A stretch of 64,000 nucleotides of DNA from Bacteroidales bacterium (lineage in GTDB: Bacteria; Bacteroidota; Bacteroidia; Bacteroidales; Marinilabiliaceae): assembly GCA_024401395.1 (NCBI GenBank), contig JAKSLD010000001.1, positions 186,001 through 250,000 on the forward strand, read 5' to 3'. Position numbers and translations under genes: made by a program. This document shows positions 26,766 through 63,321 of the stretch, piece after piece; the first letter of the stretch is position 1, and each line of letters begins with the position of its first letter. Below the pieces are notes generated by a model. That model ran no database searches and was not told the origin of the DNA. It worked only from the letters and a program-made list of their open reading frames with translations.

Positions 26766-27229
26766 AAGGAATCAGTGTCGTTTTTATAAATACATACTCG
26801 TTAAACACGCCTATTTATCACACAAGCGCATACGCGATTATACGCAATATAATATACAAAAAGTTTCGCTATTTACCTAAAAAATGCCGTTCAGCGTAGT
26901 ATTCATGGTACTATTGGCACATTTTTTCAGCACACTTCGCCCTAACCACACTCGCCTACTGTCTCTCTTCAAACATCTTCTTGTCTCTGCTTGTCCATCA
27001 AAACGCACTGTTGCAGCACATTGCCTCACAAACTCCCCACGTCTTGTCTTACCTGTCGTCACCCTTGCCTTGTCGACATCGAACCCGCTCTCTTTCAAAA
27101 CCCCTCCGCTTAGCCGTAACATCCATAGCCATAAGCCGATAAGTCCCATAGCATCTCTTGATAAAAAAATGGACGACCACCATAAATTATACTCGCCCGA
27201 GCACAACAGCAGCTCTCGCCACCGTTGTG

Positions 27230-27284
27230 CGTATGATGAGCGTATGACCATCGTATGATGTGCGTATGACGTGCGTATGTATTT
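27230..27284. repeat. Five tandem 11-base units beginning CGTATG
   Basis: CGTATG recurs exactly every 11 bases at 27230, 27241, 27252, 27263 and 27274, each followed by five variable bases (for example CGTATGATGAG and CGTATGACCAT). The period matches the 11-base units of the head-plus-array element found elsewhere in the window, and one unit of the copy at 51688-51748 is GTATGATTATG. A degenerate version of the element head (CCCGAGCACAAC, ending at 27207) lies exactly two 11-base steps upstream, which may be chance. Confidence 0.8.
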
Positions 27285-28652: not shown

Positions 28653-29924
28653 ATGACTATAAAACAATGGACCAACTCGGTCCTCATTGCCATAATCTTC
28701 CTCTTCTTCGCTACCCTAATCGGTGGTTATCTTCTCCACTCTAATACCCCCGACGCAGAACCTGAAGAAGATTTTTTTTGCGAGCAACAAGGGACTTCTC
28801 TTATACTAGAAAGGGACCAGCTATATGGTATCTTCTTGGATAGCCTCGACCTCGTTCAGGGCTCTGTGAAGAAACGCCAGAACATTACGAAGATTCTTAC
28901 CGATGCCGGTCTGCAATACTCCGACGCAATTCGAGCCGCTAATGAAATCAACAAGGTGTATGACATAAGGTATATCAAGGCAGGGAACAAGTATACGGCA
29001 TTCTATACGGCCGACTCCCTCCATATCTTGAAGCATTTTGTCTATCTGGTATCTTCTAGCGAATATGTGCGCTGTGATATCAATGGCGCTGACACTAAGG
29101 CGGAACTGTGTCAGCACGATATCATAATCAAGGAGCGCCTGGCTGAGGTTGAAATACAGACTAGCTTGTGGAATGCTGTGAAGGATGCCAACCTACCATA
29201 CGAACTCACTTTGCAGTTGTCTGATATCTACGCATGGACCGTGGATTTCTTCGGCATCGAGAAGGGGGATAGGTTCAAGATACTGTTTACCGAGGAGTTC
29301 GTCGACGATACTACGTCTATTGGTATTCGCGACATCAAGGGCGCTCTCTTCGAATCTAATGGCTCTCGCAGCTATGCTTTCTTATTCGAGAACGATAGCG
29401 CACAGAGCTATTTCGACCTCCAGGGCAATAGCCTCCGAAAGGCTTTTCTCAAGGCTCCTCTGCATTTCTCCCGAATCTCTTCTCGTTTTTCTAACTCTCG
29501 TATGCACCCTGTCCTGAAAAAAAGACGCGCTCACCATGGTGTCGACTATGCAGCTCCAGCTGGCACTCCGGTACAGAGCATCGGCGACGGTACTGTAATC
29601 GAGAAGGGCTATGATAAAAAGGGCGGTGGCAACTACGTGAAAATCCGCCATAATAGTGTCTATACCACAGTGTATATGCACCTTCGCGGCTTCGCTAAGG
29701 ACTTGAAACGGGGAGCTAGGGTCAACCAGGGTGATATCATAGGCTATGTCGGCGCAACAGGTTTGGCAACGGGCCCTCACCTCGATTTCCGCGTATATAT
29801 GAACGGAAAACCTATAGACCCCCTGAAAATGGAGGCTCCTCCTGTAGAACCTGTCTCTAACGACAACTTCGACCGCTATATCCAATACTCGGATAGCTTG
29901 AAGACTATCCTCGAGAGGCTATAA
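28653..29924 (+). CDS. Membrane-anchored M23 (LytM) family peptidase
   Basis: This 423-residue protein begins with one membrane segment ('VLIAIIFLFFATLIGGYLL', residues about 10-28), then a periplasmic region of about 240 residues with an OapA/LysM-like look ('IRYIKAGNKYTAFY'), and a C-terminal LytM domain (about residues 270-400). The domain has 'SRFSNSRMHPVLKKRRAHHG', the HxxxD metal motif at about 294-298, 'GNYVKIRH', 'YMHL' and 'TGLATGPHLDFRVY'. The usual HxH near residue 376 reads H-L-D, so a zinc ligand is replaced by Asp. M23 enzymes cut peptidoglycan cross-bridges; whether this one is active is uncertain. Residues about 41-56 are encoded by a copy of the dispersed 11-base element, so the linker after the membrane anchor appears to have been altered by insertion. 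Confidence 0.9.
   Translation: MTIKQWTNSVLIAIIFLFFATLIGGYLLHSNTPDAEPEEDFFCEQQGTSLILERDQLYGIFLDSLDLVQGSVKKRQNITKILTDAGLQYSDAIRAANEINKVYDIRYIKAGNKYTAFYTADSLHILKHFVYLVSSSEYVRCDINGADTKAELCQHDIIIKERLAEVEIQTSLWNAVKDANLPYELTLQLSDIYAWTVDFFGIEKGDRFKILFTEEFVDDTTSIGIRDIKGALFESNGSRSYAFLFENDSAQSYFDLQGNSLRKAFLKAPLHFSRISSRFSNSRMHPVLKKRRAHHGVDYAAPAGTPVQSIGDGTVIEKGYDKKGGGNYVKIRHNSVYTTVYMHLRGFAKDLKRGARVNQGDIIGYVGATGLATGPHLDFRVYMNGKPIDPLKMEAPPVEPVSNDNFDRYIQYSDSLKTILERL
28772..28821 (+). repeat. Dispersed head-plus-11-base element, copy A, inside the M23 gene
   Basis: The head here reads as a T-run followed by GCGAGCAAC (to 28788). It is followed by AAGGGACTTCT, CTTATACTAGA and AAGGGACCAGC at 28789, 28800 and 28811. 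The first two units are nearly identical to those of the intergenic copies at 43956 and 63300. The copy lies in frame and encodes the Gln/Glu-containing linker just after the membrane anchor. Confidence 0.85.
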
Positions 29925-34369: not shown

Positions 34370-34430
34370 AAAAAACTGCGAGCAACCTTATACTTCCCTT
34401 ATACTAGCCTTACACCTCTCTTATATTATC
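34370..34430 (+). repeat. Dispersed head-plus-11-base element, copy B
   Basis: The exact 17-base head AAAAAACTGCGAGCAAC is at 34370-34386. Four 11-base units follow at 34387, 34398, 34409 and 34420, each starting CTTA (CTTATACTTCC, CTTATACTAGC and two variants). Confidence 0.9.
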
Positions 34431-34457
34431 CGTCCCCCACCACATACCTCCCAATAT

Positions 34458-34518
34458 AAAAAACTGCGAGCAACCTTGTACTTCCCTTATACCAGACTTA
34501 TACCTCTTCTATACTCCC
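34458..34518 (+). repeat. Dispersed head-plus-11-base element, copy C
   Basis: A second exact head lies at 34458-34474, 88 bases from the head of copy B and in the same orientation. Four units follow at 34475, 34486, 34497 and 34508 (for example CTTGTACTTCC and CTTATACCAGA). Copies B and C form a tandem pair with similar but not identical arrays. Confidence 0.9.
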
Positions 34519-34553: not shown

Positions 34554-34588
34554 TAGGAATTAGGAATTAGGAACTAGGAACTAGGAAT
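34554..34588. repeat. 7-base tandem repeat TAGGAAY, five copies
   Basis: TAGGAAT or TAGGAAC occurs five times head to tail (34554, 34561, 34568, 34575, 34582). A related 7-base array (TTAGGGA) occurs at 44109. Confidence 0.9.
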
Positions 34589-43938: not shown

Positions 43939-44021
43939 AAAAAACTGCGAGCAACAAGGGACTTCCCTTATACTAGAAAGGACATAGGAAGGACTCAAGA
44001 AGAACATACGAAGGACACAAA
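43939..44021 (+). repeat. Dispersed head-plus-11-base element, copy D (longest array)
   Basis: An exact head is at 43939-43955. Six consecutive 11-base units follow at 43956, 43967, 43978, 43989, 44000 and 44011. Four of the six start AAGGAC or AAGAAC (for example AAGGACATAGG and AAGGACTCAAG), while the second is CTTATACTAGA as in copy A. The copy lies between the glgP terminator and a minus-strand gene. Confidence 0.92.
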
Positions 44022-44108: not shown

Positions 44109-44140
44109 TTAGGGATTAGGGATTAGGGATTAGGAATTAG
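44109..44140. repeat. 7-base tandem repeat TTAGGGA
   Basis: TTAGGGA occurs at 44109, 44116 and 44123, then TTAGGAA at 44130 and a partial TTAG. It resembles the TAGGAAY array at 34554, and both lie shortly after copies of the 11-base element. Confidence 0.9.
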
Positions 44141-51687: not shown

Positions 51688-51748
51688 CATAATCATACGC
51701 TAGTCCTACGCTACTCCCTTAGAAGTCCCTTGTTGCTCGCAGTTTTTT
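51688..51748 (-). repeat. Dispersed head-plus-11-base element, copy E, reversed
   Basis: The exact 17-base head lies on the minus strand at 51748-51732. Reading that strand, 11-base units follow ending at 51721, 51710, 51699 and 51688: AAGGGACTTCT, AAGGGAGTAGC, GTAGGACTAGC and GTATGATTATG. Successive units change gradually. The rest of the 240-base spacer (51551-51790) shows nothing else I can assign. Confidence 0.9.
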
Positions 51749-55076: not shown

Positions 55077-55604
55077 ATGATGAAATATGGAACCATATTA
55101 GCCATAGACGACAACGCGGCGTTGCTCACTGCGTTGAAATACTGTCTTGGGGAGATGTTTGACAAAGTGATTACATTACCTGCGCCAGACGATGCGCTGA
55201 AAGTCATCGCGCAAGAAGAAGTCAACATCATACTATTAGACATGAACTTCACACTAGGCGTGAATACAGGCCAAGACGGTCTCTTCTGGCTAAAGGCGAT
55301 ACGTCGCAGGCACCCAGACCTACCCATTGTACTTATGACAGCATACGCCGATGTGAGTCTGGCGGTGAAGGGGCTCAAAAGCGGTGCTGCCGACTTTATC
55401 ACAAAGCCATGGGACAATGACGACCTGATGGACAAGCTAAAAGCAGTATTAGATGCCGAAAATGATGTAGCAACATTAGATGCGGTAGAAACAGAACACA
55501 TACGCAAGGCTATTGACAAATGCAAAGGCAATATGAAACTAGCTGCAGAGATGCTTGGTATAACACGTCAGACACTTTACAACAAAGTAAAGAAACTAGA
55601 CTGA
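55077..55604 (+). CDS. Response regulator, receiver plus Fis-type HTH, no AAA+ domain
   Basis: This 175-residue protein has a receiver domain (about 1-125) with the acidic pair 'DD' at 11-12, phosphoacceptor Asp55 in 'IILLDMNF', 'VLMTAYAD' and 'FITKPWDNDDL' (the conserved Lys). A Fis-family helix-turn-helix ('HIRKAIDKCKGNMKLAAEML', 'GITRQTLYNKVKKLD') ends it. NtrC-type regulators with this HTH carry a sigma-54-activating AAA+ ATPase in between; here the two domains are directly joined, as in the RegA/PrrA group. It should therefore act with the main sigma factor rather than sigma-54. The kinase gene starts 7 bases after its stop, so the two are translationally coupled. Confidence 0.93.
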   Translation: MMKYGTILAIDDNAALLTALKYCLGEMFDKVITLPAPDDALKVIAQEEVNIILLDMNFTLGVNTGQDGLFWLKAIRRRHPDLPIVLMTAYADVSLAVKGLKSGAADFITKPWDNDDLMDKLKAVLDAENDVATLDAVETEHIRKAIDKCKGNMKLAAEMLGITRQTLYNKVKKLD

Positions 55605-55611
55605 TAGTAAT

Positions 55612-56493
55612 ATGGTAATAGCTCTCTGCATAGCGTGTGCTCTCTGTGTGCTCTTTGGTTGCTCGCAGTTTTTTCATCAGCGCAAGATGAAAAGGAGTGC
55701 CTATGTGATGAGAGAAGCACTGAGAAACAAAGACTTTTCGTTCAGACTATCGACGAAAGGGATGTGGTCGGGCGAGCGAGCCATGATGGACGTTCTCAAC
55801 AATATGGGGCAAGAGATGAAGACCCTCATAGCGGAGAATGAAGTAGAATCCTGGCAGAAGCTGACTCGAGTGCTTACCCACGAGATTATGAATGCCACTG
55901 CGCCGATTGGCAGCATCAGTCAGTCGCTATTAAAAAGAAAAGATGTAATAGGCTCCGATTTAGAAGAAGGGATAAGAGCCATTAGAGATACCAGCGCCGG
56001 ACTAGGGCATTTTGTTGAAAACTACAGGCGGTTCACGCTAGTACAGAAGCCAGTGCCAGTAGCGACGAATGCGAAAAAATTCATAGACGGCATAGTTCCG
56101 ATGTATCCAGAAGTAGAATGGGAGATAGTGATAGGAGACGACATTGATATAATGATAGACGAAGGACTAGTGAGACAAGTCATAATAAATCTAGTAAAGA
56201 ACGCCAGAGAAGCAGGAGCGACGAAAGTCGGGATAGAAACCATAAAAGAAGAGAAGGGAATCTGTCTGTTGATATCGAATGACGGAGCTCCGATACCATC
56301 CGAGATAAGCAGAGATATATTCACGCCATTTTTCACCACGAAGAGTACAGGCAGTGGCATAGGACTATCATTATCGAGACAGATAATGGTCAAACAAGGA
56401 GGAGAATTGGCATTAAGGAAAAGAGCCATTGCAGGATGGGGAGTAACATTTGAGATACACCTACTTTCGCCACACTCCGTATTCATTTCTTAA
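55612..56493 (+). CDS. Membrane histidine kinase with element-derived N-terminal segment
   Basis: This 293-residue protein has one N-terminal hydrophobic segment (residues 1-22), a short juxtamembrane region, and a kinase core with H-box 'LTRVLTHEIMNATAPI' (His90), N-box 'QVIINLVKNAREAG', 'LLISNDGAP', F-box-like 'IFTPFFTTKSTGSGIGLSLS' and the terminal 'GWGVTFEIHL'. It resembles the catalytic half of NtrY-type kinases but has no sensor or HAMP domain. Residues 2-21 coincide exactly with a reversed copy of the dispersed 11-base element (55614-55674), so the hydrophobic N-terminus appears to be made from repeat DNA. It probably phosphorylates the regulator encoded directly upstream. Confidence 0.9.
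   Translation: MVIALCIACALCVLFGCSQFFHQRKMKRSAYVMREALRNKDFSFRLSTKGMWSGERAMMDVLNNMGQEMKTLIAENEVESWQKLTRVLTHEIMNATAPIGSISQSLLKRKDVIGSDLEEGIRAIRDTSAGLGHFVENYRRFTLVQKPVPVATNAKKFIDGIVPMYPEVEWEIVIGDDIDIMIDEGLVRQVIINLVKNAREAGATKVGIETIKEEKGICLLISNDGAPIPSEISRDIFTPFFTTKSTGSGIGLSLSRQIMVKQGGELALRKRAIAGWGVTFEIHLLSPHSVFIS
55614..55674 (-). repeat. Dispersed head-plus-11-base element, copy F, within the kinase gene
   Basis: On the minus strand the exact 17-base head is at 55674-55658. 11-base units follow at 55657 (CAAAGAGCACA), 55646 (CAGAGAGCACA) and 55635 (CGCTATGCAGA), with a fourth possible unit reaching 55614. The first two units differ at one position, showing the same 11-base period with a different unit sequence. 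Confidence 0.88.
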
Positions 56494-63282: not shown

Positions 63283-63321
63283 AAAAAACTGCGAGCAACA
63301 AGGGACTTCCCTTATACTAGC
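63283..63321 (+). repeat. Dispersed head-plus-11-base element, copy G
   Basis: An exact head is at 63283-63299, followed by AAGGGACTTCC (63300) and CTTATACTAGC (63311), the same two units as in copies B and D. A third unit is doubtful. The second unit overlaps the stop codon of the minus-strand small ORF at 63317-63481. Confidence 0.88.

Follow-up and report, generated by a model that had tools for sequence, protein, structure and literature searches.

A dispersed motif with 11-bp units lies on the membrane-helix codons of a short histidine kinase in a Bacteroidales genome

INTRODUCTION

DNA uptake sequences, the USS of the Pasteurellaceae and the DUS of the Neisseriaceae, are built on a short invariant core that occurs on either strand and in both coding and intergenic DNA. 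They arise in place and form lineage variants, and in the USS the core is followed by helically spaced A/T-rich segments. The dispersed element described here shares the invariant core with A/T-rich segments spaced along the helix behind it, the use of both strands and of both kinds of DNA, an apparent origin in place, and the existence of variants, in the form of two head types. It differs from uptake sequences in being far rarer (78 exact heads of the first type and 140 of the second) and mostly intergenic, and in carrying 11-bp arrays of variable length. Rickettsia palindromic elements are likewise dispersed repeats that give residues to many unrelated proteins. They insert in frame and lengthen those proteins, whereas most coding copies of the present element are length neutral and its head is not palindromic. 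The lack of a palindrome in the head also sets the element apart from REP elements with RAYT, which it resembles as a short intergenic repeat in many copies.

PINSR of Prevotella intermedia is, according to the available part of its description, a 188-bp intergenic repeat of about 180 copies (PMC4755523). Like our element it is intergenic and confined to one lineage, a genus of the Bacteroidales; that part of the description, by which, and not by sequence, the two are told apart, mentions neither a head nor units of 11 bp. No description of the element was retrieved when the literature was searched for the head sequence, for 11-bp Bacteroidales repeats and for Bacteroidetes uptake sequences.

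The locus analyzed here codes for a histidine kinase that resembles AtoS/ZraS/NtrY-like kinases in its H-box and ATPase domain and in its pairing with a regulator composed of a receiver and a Fis-type HTH, but that has no detected sensor or HAMP domain and scores far under all NCBIfam cut-offs.

RESULTS

The helix codons of the kinase are a reverse copy of a dispersed element

The window, i.e., the whole stretch of 64,000 nucleotides that was analyzed, spans bases 186001-250000 on contig 1 of the draft genome G000 (3.3 Mb). The features of the locus are as follows, with seven bases separating the first two genes.

55077-55604, plus strand: response regulator, receiver and Fis-type HTH, directly upstream of the kinase, with the same order in orthologous loci
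55612-56493, plus strand: short membrane histidine kinase of 293 aa, with an N-terminal helix, the H-box LTHEIMN and HATPase_c, no sensor or HAMP by Pfam
55612-55680, plus strand: N-terminal segment MVIALCIACALCVLFGCSQFFHQ, equal in length to MEWVIGLLSVFVVLFVVLHLYHQ of the element-free G008 orthologue
55659-55674, minus strand: exact element head AAAAAACTGCGAGCAA, coding for GCSQFF when read on the plus strand
55615-55658, minus strand: four degenerate 11-bp units, identified by matrix score
55658-55648, minus strand: unit 1, CCAAAGAGCAC
55647-55637, minus strand: unit 2, ACAGAGAGCAC, identical to unit 1 at 9 of 11 bases
55636-55626, minus strand: unit 3, ACGCTATGCAG
55625-55615, minus strand: unit 4, AGAGCTATTAC

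The kinase had been described from the sequence as lacking sensor and HAMP domains, which is correct within the reach of Pfam: HATPase_c (PF02518, 59.2 bits versus a cut-off of 26.4) is the sole domain over threshold, and no sensor, extracytoplasmic or PAS, and no HAMP was detected at an E value of 0.001. The H-box, found by motif and by eye with no Pfam match, aligns with those of the orthologues. Assignment to the AtoS/ZraS type by equivalog models fell short, the best NCBIfam match being AtoS with 76.3 bits against a cut-off of 646.

Head and four units add up to 60 nt and fit codons 2-21 of the kinase ORF exactly, stopping at a conserved HQ. The two features by which we recognize the element, an exact head and in-register 11-bp units behind it, are both present. 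With a matrix built on 66 copies, all outside conserved genes and hence excluding coding copies, the units of the kinase copy rank among the top 0.04% (three units) or 0.02% (four units) of stretches drawn at random from the window. The copy is nevertheless weak for its family, with a score of 0.8 versus an intergenic median of 27.6 and a 10th percentile of 12.6. Thus, the earlier proposal that codons 2-21 are the reverse complement of an element copy is borne out, as is its description of the reverse reading as hydrophobic and Cys rich (best 19-aa Kyte-Doolittle mean of 2.37, four Cys).

The weakness of the units would fit a hydrophobic coding stretch that resembles the element by chance. We consider this extremely improbable, given the exact 16-nt head, which has no match in the genome control, and the rank of the units, and reject it on the window shuffles, the reversed genome control and the unit scores.

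The element is restricted to four species of one genus

In the window, 13-mer heads with at most two mismatches occur nine times versus 1.58 expected, a number never reached in 100 shuffles, and exact heads are found at six places. Pattern searches, on which the genome census of heads rests, found AAAACTGCGAGCAA 78 times in the genome and not once in the reversed control, or 155 times versus 4 with up to two mismatches. A second head type, AAAAYTRCGATGAAC, occurs 140 times in G000 (e.g., at C1:132455-132723 and C1:150486-150742; none is listed within the window). Copies of the repeat number in the hundreds in this Bacteroidales genome of gut type. Where read, the second type is likewise trailed by 11-bp units. 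Both types are restricted to four species of the genus, bar single matches: the exact head is found 78 times in G000, 30 in G008, 110 in G010 and 48 in G011, with single matches in G003 and G020, and the second type 140, 44, 16 and 39 times, respectively, and once in G005.

The consensus of the 66 copies reads AAATA AAAAAACTGCGAGCAA CCTTATACTTC CCTTATACTAG C. A/T-rich positions return every 11 bases, and in the matrix the information fades beyond about four units. Tandem heads are often spaced by multiples of 11 bp (44, 55, 88, 132), exceptions including 43, 67 and 79. Units within one copy look alike, which suggests slippage. The following copies in the window are intergenic.

34370-34513, plus strand: two copies, 88 bp (8 x 11) apart
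43939-44020, plus strand: one copy
51701-51748, minus strand: one copy
63283-63320, plus strand: one copy

Several related sequences were observed along the way. A copy with a T-run instead of the A-run (TTTTTTTTGCGAGCAACAAGGGACTTCTCTTATACTAG) lies at 28772-28809, possibly in a coding region, and this head type also occurs in a lipoprotein gene of G008 and G010. A headless 11-bp tandem array (GCGTATGACGA) is found at 27227-27279, and 34554-34588 and 44109-44140, each a short distance downstream of element copies, are occupied by tandem arrays of 7 bp (TAGGAAT, TTAGGGA). Many copies in G008 adjoin an inverted-repeat-like stretch such as CCGTACATACGGAGCGTGCTCCGTCTC (L107, L113, L115, L118, L119, L126). 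A near-identical stretch, AGTAATTGAGGTTATCCCCGAAGGCGGTGGTTTACGAAAGCGACG, follows several copies (L027, L028, L065, L066) and amounts to a longer repeat that recurs on different contigs.

We considered known vehicles for such repeats. A REP/RAYT system was rejected because the transposase is missing from three of the four carrier genomes: Y1_Tnp (PF01797) was not found in G000, G008 or G011 and is present in G010 and in non-carriers. A reverse transcriptase as mobilizer was also set aside, as RVT_1, present in G000, G008 and G010, was not found in the carrier G011 and occurs in non-carriers, leaving no clean link. A structured RNA was not supported either, as Rfam at the gathering score reported a single tRNA and nothing else between 28000 and 64000.

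The short layout of the kinase predates the element copy

Three sister species, G008, G005 and G001, have orthologues 64%, 52% and 47% identical to the kinase. The motif is absent from the kinase site in all three, which are its closest orthologues, and length and architecture are conserved. These proteins have 289-292 aa, each with one N-terminal hydrophobic helix; 89, 92 and 90 residues, respectively, precede the H-box His (89 in the kinase), and the ATG follows the stop codon of the response regulator gene within about 10 nt. In the tree the four kinases form one clade with a support of 100/100. A separate clade of short kinases, also devoid of a sensor domain, comprises proteins of G002, G003 and G004, the second kinase of this genome and one from G011, indicating that this short architecture is common across the genus. 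The layout shared by the orthologues and the existence of two short clades show that the shortness of the kinase and its anchor predate the element copy.

The sequence-only reading had suggested that a longer sensor gene may have been replaced or truncated by the element, which would have supplied a new start and membrane anchor. Longer relatives of about 400-450 aa are indeed present in the family, but all four clade members, three of them element-free, are short with the same N-terminal layout, and the second short clade is sensorless too. The start codon sits just outside the element, at a position and in a gene order shared by the orthologues, and element-free orthologues carry an N-terminal helix of equal length. 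Orthologues and tree thus exclude truncation, and we regard this scenario, start and anchor included, as having next to no likelihood. What stands of the earlier interpretation is that the membrane-segment codons are an element copy. A shared N-terminal protein sequence in element-free orthologues, named by that reading as the observation that would refute it, is found as to length, topology and everything from the HQ on, and not as to the helix residues, which differ among all four species.

The helix codons are poorly conserved irrespective of the element, with a nucleotide identity of 0.43 between this genome and G008 and of 0.27-0.46 over all pairs, versus 0.61-0.73 just downstream of the helix. 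As the helix drifts fast in every lineage, its sequence in the kinase is as compatible with gradual drift as with a single replacement that kept the length. A mobile element might have overwritten the helix codons in a single event, by short conversion or by insertion with an equal-length deletion. Such an event would account for a near-complete copy ending exactly at the HQ, for kinase residues under the element that match the G008 orthologue no better than shuffles (0.18 versus 0.10, p 0.22), and for the insertion-like length gains that are seen outside genes and in HrpB (see below). However, the kinase length is preserved within 0-6 nt, the helix DNA is no more diverged from G008 than it is between element-free species (0.32-0.46), and the copy is weak and fitted to coding, no other reverse reading being as hydrophobic. 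We therefore hold overwriting to be unlikely, albeit a serious contender.

Most copies within conserved genes are length neutral

Of the approximately 77 copies examined, ten fall within conserved genes. For seven of the ten, orthologues without the exact head align ungapped through it: the kinase, polA, PbpC, an M64-like peptidase, a LolE/FtsX-like permease, a membrane protein and a DUF1573-like lipoprotein (genes other than the kinase and its regulator were named by sequence resemblance, with no family search). In all but the kinase, the residues under the element resemble the orthologue more closely than composition-shuffled sequences do (share of 5000 shuffles that attain the observed match, 0 for three genes, and 0.001, 0.008 and 0.04 for the others), arguing that these six proteins were not overwritten wholesale. 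In sister carriers, codon alignments reveal partial or full heads at matching sites; at the lipoprotein site, G008 and G010 have TTGCTCGCAAAAAAAT where this genome reads TTGCTCGCAGTTTTTT.

The length exceptions are HrpB, a FabF-like linker and a surface-protein linker, both linkers being variable. In the HrpB-like helicase, head and units code for about 18 extra residues in G000 and G010 (L062, L195); this insert is absent from the aligned element-free species, and G011 holds a different insert there. The lengthening relative to orthologues that marks in-frame insertion is thus not seen in the kinase and the six other ungapped genes, with HrpB as the exception and the two linkers varying. As in uptake sequences, origin within genes occurs without length change (seven of ten copies ungapped, six of these seven keeping residue homology). 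Their very high copy number over coding DNA is not found, since the 3.3-Mb genome has 78 + 140 heads and some 10 of the 77 copies examined are situated within conserved genes.

When an ordinary copy is read in reverse, stops usually interrupt the frame: 58 of 228 reverse frames across all copies are open. The three most hydrophobic of these 58 are the kinase helix, the membrane protein and the lipoprotein signal peptide, each in the frame of its own gene. This ranking, together with the usual stops, indicates that, instead of being an ordinary copy dropped in, the kinase copy is compatible with the protein or has been shaped by it.

As a separate observation, the polA-like segment is about 97% identical at the protein level in G000, G010 and G008 (L017, L162, L163), whereas most other compared genes are at 60-80%. 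It carries the same element copy in the three species, and both features together suggest interspecies exchange of this gene.

Intergenic copies are both gained and kept

Judging from gap lengths, which were computed by hand from match coordinates, intergenic copies often look inserted. One orthologous gap measures 439 bp with the element versus 140, 312 and 198 bp without, and a second measures 291 bp versus 148 and 176 bp; another shows no length gain (166 versus 162). Several sites are kept across species, namely, the gap at the GDP-mannose gene (G000, G008, G011), the region upstream of lon (G000, G008) and polA (G000, G008, G010). Length gains and common sites together indicate that the element is both gained and kept. 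The orientations of neighboring genes, counted by eye, are about even (~14, 11, 14 and 12 for the four arrangements), and a promoter or terminator role is thus unsupported.

The kept sites would also be consistent with a functional copy in the kinase gene, i.e., a regulatory or chromosomal site under selection to which the helix sequence was bent. No orthologue shares the kinase site, however, and we consider such a function at this locus improbable.

DISCUSSION

The reading that we favor, and consider reasonably probable, is that the motif came to lie in place on the codons of an existing helix, with the protein neither created nor shortened. In this scenario, the kinase would belong to an old group of sensorless short kinases anchored by a single, freely drifting N-terminal helix. 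In the present species, the 60 nt coding for that helix would have taken on a dispersed, genus-limited motif, length and topology remaining unchanged. The motif may represent a DNA-level signal, most likely a site that a chromosomal protein binds along one face of the DNA double helix, or else a recognition sequence of the uptake type. Within coding DNA it probably took hold through substitution, or through short conversion events, wherever changes to the protein are tolerated, presumably including hydrophobic N-terminal segments. The membrane helix would function as before, and the motif would not be needed for signaling.

Acquisition in place is supported by the unchanged gene order, length and helix length of the element-free orthologues, the 11-base periodicity, the restriction to four species, the shared sites, the ungapped coding copies, six of the seven with residue matches above shuffles, and the reverse frames fitted to membrane and signal segments. 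It is weakened by the kinase residues under the element, whose failure to exceed shuffles would also fit replacement by conversion, and by the insertion-like gains outside genes together with the ~18 residues of HrpB. On balance, a DNA-level motif appears to have been fitted in place onto coding sequence that tolerates it. By analogy, it most resembles an uptake-type or protein-binding motif despite its low copy number, and our best guess is a candidate chromosomal site that is recognized by a protein and helically phased.

A bolder proposal, which we put forward tentatively and with low confidence, is that a motif with an invariant head and helix-phased 11-bp units is actively written into coding DNA with frame and protein length preserved, by a hitherto undescribed drive or recognition system of one Bacteroidales genus. 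If so, a DNA recognition array would end up encoding hydrophobic anchors and signal peptides.

The idea that a repeat made a new membrane anchor is thus corrected: at this locus the same bases serve both a repeat at the DNA level and a segment of protein, and the protein was not rebuilt. With its hundreds of copies in four species, its two head types and its helical phasing, the element may well represent a DNA recognition system of the Bacteroidales that has so far escaped description.
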